Positions 19-40,971 of a DNA stretch of 64,000 nt are shown here, one piece after another. The stretch lies in IMG/VR virus record IMGVR_UViG_3300027858_000004, positions 62,001-126,000 of that record. One strand, written 5' to 3'. The position numbers were made by a program, and so were the translations under genes. The DNA comes from a virus. Every line of letters starts with the position of its first letter. Position 1 is the stretch's first letter. The notes below the pieces were generated by a model. The model saw only the letters and a program-made list of their open reading frames with translations. It searched no databases and had not been told where the DNA came from.

Positions 19-546
19 ATGACAAAAGCTATGGAACTAAGTGTTGACTATGATGGATACTATGGTGGAAGTGTTAATGAAATTTTATTATTGCCATTAG
101 ATATTAATGGAGTTCTATTTGAAGAATTAGAAGAAAAGACCTATGACAGAGCAGTTTATTTAGGTGAAATTGAAGGCAAGCACAGTGAAGTTTATGGAGA
201 TTTGACAGTGCGCTTTGTTGATTTGGATACTCTGCCTGTTCGAGAGGTTTCAGAGTTAATTAAAGCATCAGATTTTGGTGAGTTTGAGGGATTCTTTGAA
301 CGGATTGAAGGTGACTTCCAAGATGATGAAGATGAGTACAACATAGAAAAAGTAAAAGAATTGCTTAACTCTTATAATGTAAAACTTGAAAAATACATGA
401 TTAAAACATCATTTGTTAACTATGAGTTCATCGAACAATTGAAAGAGAAGTATGTGCAAAAGTTTAAGAATGTCACTGTTCTGGATGATGATTATGATTT
501 AGTAGTTAAACTACTTAATGAAAACAATATTAAATACTTTGATTGA
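19..546 (+). CDS. hypothetical protein, 175 aa, acidic
   Basis: I do not recognise this protein. It is rich in Asp and Glu, with acidic stretches around residues 100-107 (DDEDEY) and 154-158, has no signal peptide or membrane segment, and looks soluble. The ATG is preceded by a clear GGAGG seven bases upstream, so the gene is complete although it begins close to the window edge. It is followed 13 bases later by an MBL-fold gene, probably in one operon. Confidence 0.75.
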   Translation: MTKAMELSVDYDGYYGGSVNEILLLPLDINGVLFEELEEKTYDRAVYLGEIEGKHSEVYGDLTVRFVDLDTLPVREVSELIKASDFGEFEGFFERIEGDFQDDEDEYNIEKVKELLNSYNVKLEKYMIKTSFVNYEFIEQLKEKYVQKFKNVTVLDDDYDLVVKLLNENNIKYFD

Positions 547-559
547 TGGGGGAAATTAA

Positions 560-1300
560 ATGTTAAAGTTTATAGGTTCTGGAAGTGCATTCAATACAAA
601 ATTAGGTAATAATTCTGCCTATTACAAAGAAGGAAATCAAATGCTACTAATCGACTGTGGCAGCAATATCTTTCATCGAATTAAAGAGGGCAACCTATTA
701 GAAGGGATAGAGAATATTCACATTTTGATTACTCATACACATGCTGACCATGTGGGCTCATTGGCAGACTTAATTCTATACACATATTACTCTCATGGTG
801 AGTTTGCTAAGTCAAAAGTGGTTGTGCACTCGCTTCTGTCCACAGGTGTCAAAGAAGTATTGAGATTAAACGGTGTAGTCGAGAATATTCATTATGAATA
901 TGCAACTTTACGATTTGATACAATCACAACTATTCCGTCATTAAGAGTTACAATAATTAACTGTTACGAGACTTCGCATGTAAATGAATTAAAATCGTTT
1001 GCATTTGATTTAACTATCAAAGGAAAAGGAGTGTATTATTCTGGAGATGCTAATGAAATAAATAAGGAAGTATTAGAAGCAATTAATAACAATTTCTTTG
1101 ATTATGCCTATATTGATACTTGTAAAGCTGATTACGAAGGTAATGTACATCTATCATTAAGAGAGTTATCTGAGCTAATTAAGCCAGAAGCACGTAATCA
1201 AGTGTGGTGTATGCATTTAGATGAAGGGTTTAATAGAAAAGAAGCCGAAGATTTAGGGTTTAACGTTGTCACTAATGTTAAGGGAGATGAACACTATTAA
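560..1300 (+). CDS. MBL-fold metal-dependent hydrolase, RNase Z-like; candidate Apyc1-type anti-Pycsar phosphodiesterase
   Basis: The protein has 246 residues. The sequence shows the metal-binding signature HTHADH at about residues 59-64, a later TSH, an SGDA motif near residue 159, and a late MHLD His near residue 218. These are the ligands of RNase Z-like metallo-beta-lactamase hydrolases binding two metals. Such enzymes cleave phosphodiester bonds. In phages this size and architecture matches the Apyc1 family, which degrades cyclic CMP and cyclic UMP and so blocks Pycsar immunity. The fold and the metal site are seen in the sequence; the anti-Pycsar role is inference. The start is ATG after GGGGG. 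A host-type RNase Z or a generic beta-lactamase-fold enzyme is the alternative. Confidence 0.8.
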   Translation: MLKFIGSGSAFNTKLGNNSAYYKEGNQMLLIDCGSNIFHRIKEGNLLEGIENIHILITHTHADHVGSLADLILYTYYSHGEFAKSKVVVHSLLSTGVKEVLRLNGVVENIHYEYATLRFDTITTIPSLRVTIINCYETSHVNELKSFAFDLTIKGKGVYYSGDANEINKEVLEAINNNFFDYAYIDTCKADYEGNVHLSLRELSELIKPEARNQVWCMHLDEGFNRKEAEDLGFNVVTNVKGDEHY

Positions 1301-1760
1301 ATACAAAGTGTATGACGACAGAGAAGAAGGAACTTTATTTGAAGGAAACGAAGATGAATGCATGTTTTGGATGAATGAGAATTATCCAGAGGATAATGAA
1401 GAATTTGAGCACATATGGATGATAGGTGAAGAAGATAAACCTCTAATCACCACCAAAGGGATTGAGCGATTAGAAGAGTATAAATTCTATGAAATACATG
1501 ACCCATATTTTGCACTAATTAAAGCAAATAATGAAGAGGATGCAGTTAACCAATACATTAAAGTGGTTGCTGGAAACGTAGAAGATACTGTTGAGCTAAT
1601 GGAAGAAATAAAAGAAGTTGATTTAACTGATACACTAATAAAATACGTTCACTCATTCTACCAACCTGCTATAGAAATTTATGAAACAATTGAAGAATAT
1701 CTTGAGTTTTTACTCAAAGAAGAATCAAACGTTCTGTTAGTTGATGGAAGTTTATTATAA
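1266..1760 (+). CDS. hypothetical acidic protein, about 164 aa
   Basis: I do not recognise this protein. It is acidic, rich in Glu, Asp, Tyr and Trp, and without membrane segments. It overlaps the end of the MBL-fold gene. The start is uncertain: TTG at 1266 has an AGGG seven bases upstream, ATG at 1275 has a poor ribosome site, and ATG at 1287 directly abuts AGGGAG with no spacing. Translational coupling to the upstream gene is likely. Confidence 0.65.
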   Translation: MSLMLREMNTIKYKVYDDREEGTLFEGNEDECMFWMNENYPEDNEEFEHIWMIGEEDKPLITTKGIERLEEYKFYEIHDPYFALIKANNEEDAVNQYIKVVAGNVEDTVELMEEIKEVDLTDTLIKYVHSFYQPAIEIYETIEEYLEFLLKEESNVLLVDGSLL

Positions 1761-3186: not shown

Positions 3187-3690
3187 ATGAACACTGAAAC
3201 ATCTTGCTGTTTTACTGGTCACAGACCTGAAAAGCTACCTAATGGATACAACATGCTTGGAGAAGAAAACTTTAACATGCTCATGAAACTAAAGGAAATA
3301 ATCATAGACCATATTGAGAATAAAAATATAGATACTTTTATAACTGGCATGGCATTAGGAATTGATACTTGGGCAGCATTTATAATATTGAAGTTAAAAC
3401 AAACTTATCCTCATATTAAACTTGTAGCTGCCGTTCCTTGTGCTAACCACAGTATCAAATGGAATCAAGAATCTAGAGACATTCATCAACAGATTCTTGA
3501 TAAGTGTGATACAGTTCACTATGTTTCTGAAGAGCCTTATACACACTGGTGTATGCAAGATAGAAATAAATGGATGGTTGACAACTCTAAATATACCATA
3601 GCAGTTTGGGATGGCACTAAGGGTGGAACAGCGAACTGTGTTAATTATGCTAAGAAGAAAAATAAAGAGATAAGTATTTTACATCCATAG
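3187..3690 (+). CDS. DUF1273 / SLOG-fold (YpsA/YoqJ-like) protein
   Basis: The protein has 167 residues. The N-terminus CCFTGHRPEKL is the family hallmark, followed by GMALGIDTWAA (Gly-rich nucleotide-binding loop) near residues 55-65 and by DGTKGGTANCVNYA near residues 140-153. This is the Rossmann-like SLOG fold seen in B. subtilis YpsA and SPbeta YoqJ. SLOG domains bind nucleotide-derived ligands, and in Thoeris ThsA the SLOG domain senses an NAD-derived signal. The role of the phage copies is not established. It lies between small genes upstream of recJ. Confidence 0.88.
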   Translation: MNTETSCCFTGHRPEKLPNGYNMLGEENFNMLMKLKEIIIDHIENKNIDTFITGMALGIDTWAAFIILKLKQTYPHIKLVAAVPCANHSIKWNQESRDIHQQILDKCDTVHYVSEEPYTHWCMQDRNKWMVDNSKYTIAVWDGTKGGTANCVNYAKKKNKEISILHP

Positions 3691-24305: not shown

Positions 24306-25703
24306 ATGACAATTATCACAAAAGACAGAAACTCACATGTTCAAAAGTCGGAGTTTATGTTGGAAAGATTTGAGCGTTTCTTTAATGAAATTATAGAGGA
24401 CTCAGAAAAACAATATGACCAAGACATTCTTAATACAATCAAAGAAAACGTATTGGACTACGTTGAATCAAAAGAAGAGGTTGAAGCAGATAAGCTTTTT
24501 GATTTAATTATCAGAGCATCTAATGACCAAATCTCCGAGAAGAATCCTGATTTCACTTATTTAAGTGCATCAGCATTGCGCAGAAAGATTTATAAACAAG
24601 CATCTAAAAATCGTGGTTTTGATTATAAAAACGGATATGGAGATTACTATTCATTCGTTATCCAGATGGTTGAGCAAGGAATTTATGATGAAGACATTTT
24701 AACTTCCTATACCGAAGCAGAAATTAGAAGAGTAGGTAAATTAATCAACATTGGCAAAGATAAGAAGTTCAGTTATGCAGGATTATTTATGCTTAACAAC
24801 ACTTACTTGAAAAAGGGATACAGAGGAGAAGTATTGGAGCTACCACAAGAGCGCTTCTTAACATCTGCTTTATACTTCATGAAAGACGAGAAGAAAACTA
24901 AGCGTTTTGAGTTTGTTCGTGAAGCTTATTGGGCATTGTCTAATCACTTCATTGGTTTGGCAACCCCTTCATTGTTAAATGCTGGCGCAACTAATGGAAC
25001 ACTCTCATCTTGCCATATTATTACCCCTAATGATGATTTAATGAGCATTATGGAAAGTTTGAAACAGACAGCCAAGTTCTCACAAAATGGAGCTGGAATT
25101 GGAATTTATATGGGATTCTTACGTGCAAGTGGTTCGTGGATTCGTGGATACAAAGGTCGTGCAACTGGGGTTCTACATCCTTCACGCTTAACTAGTACAT
25201 TAGCTGAGTATGTAAATCAACTTGGCGCTAGACCTGCTGGAATAGCTTTGTATTTACCTGTGTGGCATTTAGATGTATTTGACTTCTTAGATTTACGATT
25301 GAAAACTGGGTCACAAGAGAAACGTGCTCACACTATTAAAACTGCTGTAACTGTACCAGATGAGTTTATGCGCAGATTGAAAGCTAAGCAAAACTTCACT
25401 CTCTTTGACCCATATGAATTTAAGAAGAAAATGGGAGTGGACTTGAACCGCTTGTTCGATAAAAAGAAATTGATGGATGGAGAAGAACCCAATAAAGTTG
25501 ACCATGCTTTCACTTACTGGTATCGCAAAGCAGAAGAAGACAAAACATTTGAGCTTAGTCGTGTTGTAAGCACAACTGAGATTTACAAATCAATCTTTGC
25601 ATCACGTAAAACTGGTGGAACACCTTACATGTACTACTCTGACATCTCAGCACGAATGAATCCTAATGAGCACATGGGAATGCCTTTTGGTTCTAATCTG
25701 TGT
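24306..25703 (+). CDS. nrdA: ribonucleoside-diphosphate reductase large subunit, exon 1
   Basis: Residues 1-466 of a 774-residue spliced protein. The N-terminal about 95 residues look like an ATP-cone domain (ending NPDFTYLSASALRRKIY). The catalytic barrel follows with GLATPSLLNAGATNGTLSSCHI (first redox Cys), QNGAGIGIY and GSNLC (active-site Cys) at the very end, where the group I intron interrupts. It makes dNDPs from NDPs together with NrdB. The ATG follows GAGAGG. The ATP-cone makes it more like class Ia NrdA than class Ib NrdE. Confidence 0.92.
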
Positions 25704-26604
25704 TAATTATTAGCACCTTTGAGAAGTGATTCTCATAGCAAACCCATCTAAACAGGGGAACTCTCATGGCATTGAGACAATCCTGTGCTAAATACTCGAT
25801 ATTGACAAATAAATGATATGGATGTGAAAAACAATGATTTATGATGTATATTCAATTACATGCTTAGCAAATGGCAGGGTGTATTTTGGTCGCTCTCAGG
25901 AGATAGGAAAAAGATGGAGAGCACATGTGAACATGCTTAGAAAGTCGGTTCATAACAACTTACTTCTTCAATCTGACTGGAATGAATATGGTGAGCCAAA
26001 CTTTACATTCAAGATAATCCATTCAACAGAATCTCTAGAAGAGTCTGTAGATATTGAGCAATCATACATTGATTCCAGCGCCTATGAAAAATATAACATT
26101 TCTGATGCAAAAGACGGTGGAAATACATTTACAAATAACCCCAGAAGCGAAGTTACTAGAAAGTTAAAAAGCTATAACACCACTGGGGAGAGAAATCCAA
26201 TGTATGGAAAACCGAAATCAGAAAAAATGATAAGTAGAGTTAAAGAGGCAAATTCCAAGCCTGTGGTGGTTGAAGGTGTTCTTTATCCAAGCTCAGTAGA
26301 AGTTAGCAAGGCAACTGGGATAAAAACTACAACAATAAACTACAGATTGCAATCCAAATCTCCAAGATTTAAAGATTGGAATTATGCATAAAAAGCAATA
26401 TCGAGTTAAATGCCAAACGACTATCGAAAGGGTAGCTTACATCGAGAGGATATAAGTGAGAACCGAGTAGAGTACACTCAAGCGAGTGGAAAAGATGGGA
26501 ATCTGTAGTAACGATACAGATTATGATATAGTCTAGCCTCTATAGTGATGTAGAGCAGTCTAGAGACGGTTGTGACATTAGCGATGTTACAGCGAATATA
26601 AGCG
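25704..26604 (+). mobile_element. group I intron in nrdA
   Basis: 901 bases between GSNLC and SEIIQNMDYD. The 5' exon ends in T and the intron ends in G, as group I splicing needs, and joining 25703 to 26605 restores the reading frame exactly. Conserved core sequences are visible: a GACAATCCTGTGCTAAAT segment (Q/P-type), CAAACGACTATCG (R-type) and GATATAGTCTA (S-type). The loop carries a GIY-YIG endonuclease gene. Confidence 0.88.
25834..26391 (+). CDS. GIY-YIG homing endonuclease in the nrdA intron
   Basis: 185 residues. An N-terminal GIY-YIG domain (VYSITCLANGRVYFGRS, catalytic Arg in GKRWRAH, Glu in DIEQSYI) is followed by a NUMOD3-type motif (GERNPMYGKPKSEKM) and a C-terminal NUMOD1-like helix-turn-helix (SSVEVSKATGIKTTTINYRL). 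Such enzymes cut intronless alleles and drive intron spread. ATG after GGATGTG, entirely inside the intron. Confidence 0.88.
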   Translation: MIYDVYSITCLANGRVYFGRSQEIGKRWRAHVNMLRKSVHNNLLLQSDWNEYGEPNFTFKIIHSTESLEESVDIEQSYIDSSAYEKYNISDAKDGGNTFTNNPRSEVTRKLKSYNTTGERNPMYGKPKSEKMISRVKEANSKPVVVEGVLYPSSVEVSKATGIKTTTINYRLQSKSPRFKDWNYA

Positions 26605-27531
26605 AGTGAGATTATTCAAAATATGGATTATGACCGAGTTGAGTCAGAAGAGTTGGATAAAGAAGGCTTCTTAGTTACTAAGACAAAGGGTGAAGGATTA
26701 GTTACATGTAACTTATCGTCATTGGTATTAAACAACATATTTGGAAAAGGCAATGAACATGTTGACTTGCAAAAGGTTGTTGATATCCAGTTTAGAATGT
26801 TGGATAACGTTATCACACTAAATCGCACAGTTGTTCCACAAGCCACACACACTAATAGACTTTATCGTGCTGTTGGGGCAGGAGCTATGGGGCTAGTTAC
26901 TCTAATGACATCTGAGGGTATTCGCTGGGAGTCTAATGAAGCATCTGAATTCACAGAGAATATTTTTAAGCAATATTTAATGGCTTCAATTAAAGCATCG
27001 TCAAAACTGGCAGAAGAGAAAGGTTCTTATCCTTATTACGAAGGCTCAGATTGGAACACAGGAGCATTCTTTGATAAGCGTGGATTCGTTTCTGATGAGT
27101 GGAATGAGGTTCGTGATTTAGCTTCTAAGGGCATGAGAAATGCTTACTTGATGGCTATTGCTCCGACATCTTCAAACTCAATCATGATGAATAGTAGTCC
27201 AAGTATTGACCCTCCGTATGCTGTTATCTACAGAGAAGAGAAGTCTGGACTTAATGTTATCATTGTTCCTTCTAACTACAATAATCAAACAAAATGGTTT
27301 TATAAGTCTGGTTTTGAAATGGATGAAATGTGGGCAATTAAAGTTGTTGCGGCAGCTCAAAAATACATTGACCAAGCTATCAGCCACAACATGCATGTTT
27401 CCAAGTCTATTAAAGGTTCTGAGCTATTGAGACTGGATATGGGTGTTTGGGAAAACGGCATAAAAACTACTTATTACACATACACAGAAGACTACGTGTT
27501 GGATGATACTTGTGTAATGTGCAGTTCATAA
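26605..27531 (+). CDS. nrdA: ribonucleoside-diphosphate reductase large subunit, exon 2
   Basis: The last 308 residues of the spliced NrdA. It begins SEIIQNMDYDRVESEE, continues with NLSSLVL, the conserved MAIAPTSSNSIMMNSSPSIDP loop and the Tyr-rich end, and finishes with CVMCSS, the C-terminal Cys pair that is re-reduced by thioredoxin. An ATG at 26623 could start a free ORF, but the upstream exon codons remain in frame to 26605, so it is not a separate gene. Confidence 0.9.
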   Translation, partial: SEIIQNMDYDRVESEELDKEGFLVTKTKGEGLVTCNLSSLVLNNIFGKGNEHVDLQKVVDIQFRMLDNVITLNRTVVPQATHTNRLYRAVGAGAMGLVTLMTSEGIRWESNEASEFTENIFKQYLMASIKASSKLAEEKGSYPYYEGSDWNTGAFFDKRGFVSDEWNEVRDLASKGMRNAYLMAIAPTSSNSIMMNSSPSIDPPYAVIYREEKSGLNVIIVPSNYNNQTKWFYKSGFEMDEMWAIKVVAAAQKYIDQAISHNMHVSKSIKGSELLRLDMGVWENGIKTTYYTYTEDYVLDDTCVMCSS

Positions 27532-39028: not shown

Positions 39029-39457
39029 ATGAGAGCCAATTGGTCGATAGAGGAAGCAGAAACCCTTAAAAAGCTATATTCTATTAGGACTGCTAATGAG
39101 CTGGCTGAGATTTTCCCGAACTATAGTAACACTCAAATACTGAGAAAAGCAAAACAACTTAAGCTAAAAAAGAAAAAAGAAGTTACTTATAAATCAAGAT
39201 TAGAAAACTCTATTATTCAAAGAAATGACCTGTGGACAGATAAAGAAAAGAGCATTGTAATTGAGAACTATTCTATCTTGGGAGCAAAAGGTGTAATGGA
39301 GCTAATGGGAGAGAATCGCTCTGAGGAGCAAATAAAAAAAATGGCATATAGAATGAATCTACAGCGAGAAGATAAATCAATGATGTGGGAACAAACAGAT
39401 ATAAAACTGGTCAATAATAATATTTTTTCAGTTGAAGCAACTTACAAAGGACGGTGA
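39029..39457 (+). CDS. DNA-binding protein with two Myb/SANT-like repeats
   Basis: 142 residues. Two repeats begin with Trp: WSIEEAETLKKLYSI (residues 4-18) and WTDKEKSIVIENYSI (near 69-83), each followed by a helix pair (NTQILRKAKQLKL, SEEQIKKMAYRMNL), the layout of tandem Myb/SANT or GcrA-like helix-turn-helices. It overlaps the integrase start by four bases and likely works with it, as accessory factor or regulator. ATG after AGGAGG. Confidence 0.7.
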   Translation: MRANWSIEEAETLKKLYSIRTANELAEIFPNYSNTQILRKAKQLKLKKKKEVTYKSRLENSIIQRNDLWTDKEKSIVIENYSILGAKGVMELMGENRSEEQIKKMAYRMNLQREDKSMMWEQTDIKLVNNNIFSVEATYKGR

Positions 39458-40971
39458 CTCTGGTGAATGAATTTCAAACATATAAAACAACTAGGAATAT
39501 TTTAGAATCGATTAAAAATGTAGGGATGTACATCCGTAAATCGAGAGGGGATGCACAGGAAGATTTACAAAAGCATAGAATGATTATGGAAGAAATATGT
39601 AAACAAAACAACTGGAACTTTGTTGAATACTCTGAGATAGGCACTGGAGATTCAATAGAAGATAGGGTGGAGATAAAGGAGCTACTAAAAGATGTAGCGG
39701 AAGGTCTTTTCGATGCAGTAATAGTATTTGACTATGATAGATTGGGTCGTGGTAATGGAACAGACCAAGATACCATTAAAAACACCTTCAGAAATAGTGA
39801 TACTTTAATTATTGTTTCAAATCCATTTCAAATCTTTGATACAAATGATGAGCGTGACGAAGAGGCAATGGACTTCAAAGGATTTATGGCTAGAAGAGAA
39901 TATAAAATGATTACTAAGCGTATGGTTACAGGTAAGAAAATTGGTCTGAAGATGGGAAGATGGTCTAACGGTGTTGCACCATTCGGTTATGAATATAGTA
40001 AAGAGCTTAAAAGTTTAACTGTACATCCACTGGAATCAGAAATATATAAAAAACTAATTGTAAGCGAATATATAAATGGAAAGTCTATTACTGATATAGC
40101 ATGGGACTTAAATAAGAAAAATATAGCATCTCCGAGAAATGGTAAGTGGACTCCAAACACAATTAGCAACATGTTAAAAAGCGAAGTTTATCTAGGACAT
40201 ATTGTCTATAATAAGTCCGAAGGTAGTAGAAAGTCCAATTCTCAAACTAAAAAACCTTTTAAACAAAAACCTAAAGAAGAGTGGATAACAATAAAAAATT
40301 GTCACACATCTCTAAAAACACAAACTGAACACCTTAAAATAATATCTCTATTGAAATCAAAAACCAGACACAATAACCATTCTATAAATGCTCTAACTGG
40401 TTTAGTAAAATGCTATGAATGTGGTGGAACATTAAAAACACAGAAAGTAAACAATAAAGTTGTATTAAGAAACTGCACTGCTTGTAAGGACTCTCATGGG
40501 GGAGATACCTCATTAATTGAGAAAACTATATTTGATACCATTAGTCACTTAAGGGATATTCTAATTAATACAAAAAATTCAAATGCAAATGAAACAGAAA
40601 AAGAGTATATTCTTAATCAGGTGAAATCACTTGAAAGAGAGCTGGATGTAAATGAGGCAGCAATAGAAAAAATTGAAAATGCTTATGAAGAAGGAGAATA
40701 TGATATAAATAAATTCAGAAAAAAGGTAAAAGCAAGACAAGAAAACATACTTGAATTAGAAGAAAATTTGAAAGTTAAGAAGTTAGAATTAAGCTCATTT
40801 TCAAATGTTGATAATGAGGAAAGAATACAAAGAATTGATGTTTTTTTTGAGCAGATAAAAAAATGTAAAAACAACAAAGAGATGAATGAATCTTACAAAA
40901 GTATTATTAGCTCAATAGTATGGAAGAGGACAATATGGGATGAAGTGAGGGTGACTGTAAATTTTCTTTAA
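39454..40971 (+). CDS. int: large serine integrase
   Basis: 505 residues. The N-terminal resolvase domain has the catalytic Ser in MYIRKSRGDA (near residue 29) and FDYDRLGRG near residue 92. The recombinase domain includes GVAPFGYEY and NGKWTPNTISNMLKSEVYLG. The zinc ribbon is GLVKCYECGGTL plus CTACKD. A coiled coil (residues 395-455) follows. Such enzymes cut and rejoin attP and attB with a two-base overlap and integrate the phage in one direction; excision needs a directionality factor. GTG at 39454 or 39463. SPbeta SprA is the same class. Confidence 0.93.
   Translation: MTLVNEFQTYKTTRNILESIKNVGMYIRKSRGDAQEDLQKHRMIMEEICKQNNWNFVEYSEIGTGDSIEDRVEIKELLKDVAEGLFDAVIVFDYDRLGRGNGTDQDTIKNTFRNSDTLIIVSNPFQIFDTNDERDEEAMDFKGFMARREYKMITKRMVTGKKIGLKMGRWSNGVAPFGYEYSKELKSLTVHPLESEIYKKLIVSEYINGKSITDIAWDLNKKNIASPRNGKWTPNTISNMLKSEVYLGHIVYNKSEGSRKSNSQTKKPFKQKPKEEWITIKNCHTSLKTQTEHLKIISLLKSKTRHNNHSINALTGLVKCYECGGTLKTQKVNNKVVLRNCTACKDSHGGDTSLIEKTIFDTISHLRDILINTKNSNANETEKEYILNQVKSLERELDVNEAAIEKIENAYEEGEYDINKFRKKVKARQENILELEENLKVKKLELSSFSNVDNEERIQRIDVFFEQIKKCKNNKEMNESYKSIISSIVWKRTIWDEVRVTVNFL

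Follow-up and report, generated by a model that had tools for sequence, protein, structure and literature searches.

Apyc1 is a phage enzyme that destroys bacterial alarm signals. Besides its metal ligands, this metallo-β-lactamase (MBL)-fold protein also needs E74 and Y112 from the opposing protomer, an extra loop enters its pocket, and its hydrolysis of cCMP required E74 (Hobbs et al., PMC9117128). YhfI, an MBL class II phosphodiesterase, prefers cAMP and cGMP (PMC9117128). For a third protein, MBLBt2 (7FCT), we found only a structure; our search of the literature yielded neither a paper nor a function for it, nor an assay of any member of its subfamily.

Here we describe an MBL-fold hydrolase encoded in a window of 64,000 nucleotides, corresponding to bases 62001-126000 of a virus record of 166,074 bases. 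A preliminary description made from the sequence had noted the size and motif layout of an Apyc1-type anti-Pycsar nuclease and had inferred the role from them. We find that the protein is a member of a phage and Firmicutes subfamily, MBLBt2/phrog_392, which stands apart from Apyc1 proper.

Results

The gene and its metal site

The open reading frame (Table 1) is a genuine gene, with a good ribosome binding site, a complete set of MBL ligands and homologues matching down to E = 6e-90. A promoter scan gave a signal no better than shuffled sequences. The phage setting given in the preliminary description is correct, and a plasmid origin was considered and rejected.

Table 1. Coordinates of the MBL gene, its active-site codons and neighbouring genes in the window
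Feature	Position	Strand	Remarks
175-aa gene, ending 13 bases before the MBL gene	19..546	+	66% identical homologue at most 1 kb from the Perkons MBL gene
Ribosome binding site GGGGGAA	548..554	+	Read from sequence
MBL-fold hydrolase gene P0001, MBLBt2/phrog_392 subfamily	560..1300	+	246 aa, ATG start
HxHxDH codons, residues H59-H64, metal ligands (HTHADH, residues 59-64)	734..751	+	
Ala69 codon, position of the Apyc1 catalytic Glu74	764..766	+	Alignment; PMC9117128
H140, motif III metal ligand	977..979	+	Alignment
D163, motif IV bridging metal ligand	1046..1048	+	Alignment
H197, conserved active-site His of the VHLS motif; aligns with the RNase Z HxT His	1148..1150	+	Alignment
H219, final metal ligand	1214..1216	+	Alignment
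phrog_3930 gene, likely ATG at 1287, overlapping the MBL gene end	1287..1760	+	
YpsA-type SLOG protein, downstream, same strand	3187..3690	+	Pfam

In our alignment all seven metal ligands are kept (H59, H61, D63, H64, H140, D163 and H219) and, together with H197, they are conserved in essentially all members of the subfamily. The size, the HTHADH signature and the later ligands noticed beforehand are therefore all present in the protein, and the MBL fold is borne out by Pfam, PHROG, AlphaFold2 and Foldseek alike, well past what chance would give.

Family assignment

Two Pfam families matched the protein, PF12706 (1.3e-13) and PF23023, Anti-Pycsar_Apyc1 (1.6e-13). The second match is marginal, since its 51.1 bits pass the curated cut-off of 50 by 1.1 bits; for comparison, the same model scores 254 bits on a Paenibacillus Apyc1 locus. 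The assignment to PHROG was to phrog_392, metal-dependent hydrolase (6.8e-44). Among solved structures, phmmer placed 7fct ('metallo-beta-lactamase MBLBt2') at the top (2.7e-65; 47% identity, equal length and motifs), followed by three Apyc1 structures (6e-21 to 2e-11). With the structural match to 7fct given below, these results assign the protein to the MBLBt2/phrog_392 subfamily.

Among enzymes of characterised function, the closest to this protein are the anti-Pycsar nucleases of the Apyc1 type and not RNase Z. Profile-profile comparison, which had been suggested as a check, matched Apyc1 with an E of 9.4e-34 over 217 columns, against 5e-12 for RNase Z over the first 146 columns only. The NCBIfam RNase Z model TIGR02651 matched the N-terminal part (E 1.6e-11) at 43.8 bits, far under its curated cut-off of 292.95. 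Moreover, the exosite arm of RNase Z is missing: motifs III and IV are separated by 23 residues in the query and by 68-71 in RNase Z. We therefore rejected membership in RNase Z on the missed cut-off and the absent arm; what the two have in common is the N-terminal half bearing HxHxDH.

Features of Apyc1 that the subfamily lacks

Residue counting in the Apyc1 of phage SBSphiJ (gp147) identified E74 as the first E of GGLEEV and placed Y112 within GGLRY. The E74 position holds glutamate in 13 of 13 rows of the Apyc1 clade. By contrast, none of the 67 subfamily members, a group from which the BSP38 Apyc1 was excluded, has glutamate there (G in 57, A in 5, S in 3, T in 1 and P in 1), the query having Ala69. 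The pocket loop is absent as well, the Tyr112 column of the alignment being empty in 67/67 members. Because Tyr112 also varies among the Paenibacillus Apyc1 proteins, we regard only E74 and the loop as diagnostic. The query also lacks the C-terminal tail motif of Apyc1. Activity on cCMP and cUMP is thus not predicted by the diagnostic residues.

Structural comparison

An AlphaFold2 model, a single-chain prediction built from 48 sequences, reached a pLDDT of 95.6. Foldseek superposed it on 7fct with a TM of 0.93 (rmsd 1.3 Å) and on the Apyc1 structures (7T28, 7U2R, 7U2S) with a TM of 0.75-0.79 (3.0-3.6 Å; 23-26% structural identity). The values were 0.73 for YhfI (0.72-0.73 over 6KNS and 1ZKP) and 0.73 for RNase Z (1Y44). 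As a control, the modelled BSP38 Apyc1 matched the Paenibacillus Apyc1 structures with a TM of 0.85-0.90 (2.2-2.4 Å), a within-family range that the query does not reach, and matched 7fct with only 0.72-0.77, a level like that for YhfI. Judging from the model, the query would be about equally distant from Apyc1 and from YhfI or RNase Z. Based on these values, the control included, we regard the window subfamily and Apyc1 as separate groups of MBL proteins, similar in size. YhfI shares the fold, the metal site and the lack of an exosite arm with the query, but has 16-18% identity to it and distinct motifs around the last ligands.

Phylogeny

Trees were inferred under LG+C20 with PMSF; they supersede a quick tree with distant MBLs that had long-branch trouble. 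YhfI is absent from them and was compared by structure only. Apyc1 from SBSphiJ, BSP38 and Paenibacillus, together with two deep bacterial relatives, formed one long-stemmed clade (100/99; 100/100 in the second tree), and in both careful trees the query fell outside this verified Apyc1 clade (100/99; 100/100). It grouped with the Perkons protein and a Lysinibacillus protein (100/100 in one tree, 95/74 in the other), and the host RNase Z proteins were distant from it in both. Holding the query with RNase Z cost 17.8 log-likelihood units (AU p 0.057), and forcing it together with Apyc1 in a sister position was not rejected (AU p 0.27). Hence the subfamily may be the sister group of Apyc1, a position that the trees do not reject while leaving the branching order of Apyc1 and the query-type lineages unsettled.

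Therefore, the Apyc1-type identity proposed earlier holds in part. On the coarse check proposed beforehand, the protein comes out nearer to Apyc1 than to a housekeeping RNase Z, from which it separates in trees, but it lies outside the Apyc1 clade, lacks E74 and the loop, only just passes PF23023 and has a structure almost as far from Apyc1 as from YhfI.

Relatives in phages and bacteria

Homologues were found by tblastn in 94 phage records, the best being Psychrobacillus phage Perkons (61%, 6e-90), with further matches at 43-48% in AR9, PBS1, BM15, CM1, Bobb, Troll and SBSphiC. The subfamily is spread over dozens of large Bacillus phages, and more distant relatives occur in Staphylococcus and Listeria phages. 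The 7fct sequence as printed is itself 98% identical to proteins of Caeruleovirus-type Bacillus phages (CM1 and contig L031). When viral contigs were queried with the single protein no relatives were retrieved, but an alignment query did retrieve them. GenBank labels on the homologues include ribonuclease Z/BN.

In these searches each phage record carries one homologue, of the query type or of the Apyc1 type, and none carries two (94 places across 94 records; 92/92, uncorrected for phage kinship), as if the two were interchangeable. SBSphiC carries the window subfamily, and its record gives the host strain that is also named for SBSphiJ. If SBSphiC was among the 57 phages screened for cyclic nucleotide degradation, the fact that it is missing from the cCMP degraders would speak against activity on cCMP. 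Since a BLAST search started from SBSphiJ Apyc1 retrieves this subfamily, the 107 phage 'Apyc1-related' proteins collected by BLASTp in PMC9117128 probably include it.

Many homologues lie in chromosomal-looking neighbourhoods with no obvious phage genes, which indicates that the enzyme is more than a weapon of phages. Two bacterial copies (L074, L078) have chemotaxis genes on one side and a spo0A-like gene on the other, and a Lysinibacillus copy (L070) is near GNAT, kinase and gerAC genes. Three others (L081, L083 and L086) are the last genes of ABC-transporter operons, one of them with a GDPD gene nearby. Apart from assignments made by Pfam, these neighbours were named by inspection of their sequences. 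Separately, a protein from an Oscillospiraceae rumen MAG (L090:5001-6737) has an Apyc1-like MBL domain fused to GAF and GGDEF domains, a hint of nucleotide signalling.

Genomic neighbourhood

The MBL gene sits in a run of small unknown genes that share its strand. Its adjacency to such genes, read earlier as fitting a counter-defence role, is correct for the nearest ones, but the wider setting is a DNA replication module, with Sak4, DnaB helicase and primase upstream and, downstream, the YpsA/SLOG protein (part of the run that holds the MBL gene), RecJ, DNA polymerase III alpha and ligase. In some defence systems the ligands bound by SLOG domains derive from nucleotides. Contig L060 also has a SLOG homologue close to its MBL gene, and in AR9 the SLOG gene g004 (pfam06908) is about 14 kb from the MBL homologue.

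The AR9 homologue (g022) adjoins gyrB, is near recD and lies between annotated early promoters, downstream of one; the main text of the paper on AR9 expression makes no mention of g022. The Perkons gene adjoins DNA ligase. In BM15, CM1 and six contigs, all Caeruleovirus-type, the MBL gene follows, at a distance of 12 bp, a homologue of Tad4, a type I Thoeris inhibitor (for BM15, Pfam E 9.9e-43). This adjacency is confined to one lineage: Bobb has its Tad4 homologue about 22 kb from the MBL gene, and in other relatives the neighbours are mostly unknown. In Bacillus phage BM15 and its relatives the Tad4 homologue (L009:2641-2988), with the MBL gene right behind it, marks a candidate anti-defence island.

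Elsewhere in the window, the large subunit of ribonucleotide reductase is divided between two ORFs (24306-25706 and 26623-27531), and an ORF for a homing endonuclease separates them (25834-26391); Rfam at the gathering threshold detected no intron in the region 24306-27531. The Sak4-like recombination gene is closely preceded by a homing-type endonuclease of phrog_4645, which lies ahead of the window (L002:4013-4858; genome 54012-54857). An integrase (39454-40971; phrog_95, E 1.8e-74) points to a temperate phage, and tail genes occupy the minus strand towards the window end. The window contains no tRNA genes.

Discussion

As the most economical reading, we propose that this protein, which belongs to the subfamily of phages and Firmicutes that has MBLBt2 as its type, is an active MBL-fold phosphodiesterase with two zinc ions. 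A zinc-bound hydroxide would attack and open the phosphodiester of a small, probably cyclic, nucleotide. In phages, and here we are more cautious, this might remove a host alarm nucleotide and so protect the infection, as Apyc1 does. With a base pocket built differently from that of Apyc1, the substrate range would probably differ too. Taken as a whole, this account is tentative, and we would give it slightly less than an even chance. Its parts differ in strength. An active phosphodiesterase is very likely, and a small nucleotide is the rather probable substrate. A role in counter-defence is plausible, though we hold it with some reserve; it is supported by carriage in phages, one copy per phage, the early position in AR9 and the one Tad4 neighbour. 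Efficient hydrolysis of cCMP and cUMP seems unlikely, and as to anti-Pycsar activity itself we can only hypothesize.

A metabolic role is also open, given that bacterial copies have chromosomal-looking surroundings and that the window gene is set among replication genes. The protein could be an enzyme of nucleotide or phosphodiester metabolism, exchanged with hosts and serving phage DNA replication or nucleotide salvage. Its position, with DnaB helicase/primase on one side and RecJ/DNA polymerase III alpha on the other, the gyrB, recD and ligase neighbours in AR9 and Perkons, and the bacterial ABC-transporter operons would fit such a role. However, the placement relative to replication genes varies among phages and most immediate neighbours are small unknowns, and we consider this reading somewhat unlikely.

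We judge it unlikely that the subfamily has the true Apyc1 function, namely broad cNMP hydrolysis including cCMP and cUMP and inhibition of Pycsar, with no need of Glu74 or the loop. Apyc1 is the nearest characterised family, PF23023 scores just above its cut-off, the 107-protein set probably includes the subfamily, and Tyr112 is unconserved in Paenibacillus Apyc1 as well. Yet the residue required for cCMP hydrolysis (PMC9117128) is replaced in 67/67 members, the loop is gone, and the query lies outside the Apyc1 clade at a structural distance close to that from YhfI.

A second phage family of signal-degrading MBL enzymes, acting on an alarm nucleotide other than cyclic pyrimidines, is an idea to which we attach a low probability; examples would be a Thoeris ADP-ribose signal, suggested by the Tad4 homologue that adjoins the gene in one lineage, or a cyclic nucleotide not yet described. 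Finally, a housekeeping-type RNase Z acting in tRNA 3' processing is highly improbable, for despite the GenBank names and the N-terminal TIGR02651 match, the score and the missing arm speak against it, as do the remoteness of host RNase Z in the trees and the lack of tRNA genes in the window.

Because the tested features diagnostic of Apyc1 are absent, the protein should be named an 'Apyc1-related MBL hydrolase' and not Apyc1. By default, members of this subfamily are annotated as RNase Z/BN, as beta-lactamase or, via Pfam, as Apyc1. The residue and loop differences described here provide a simple rule that separates them from verified Apyc1.
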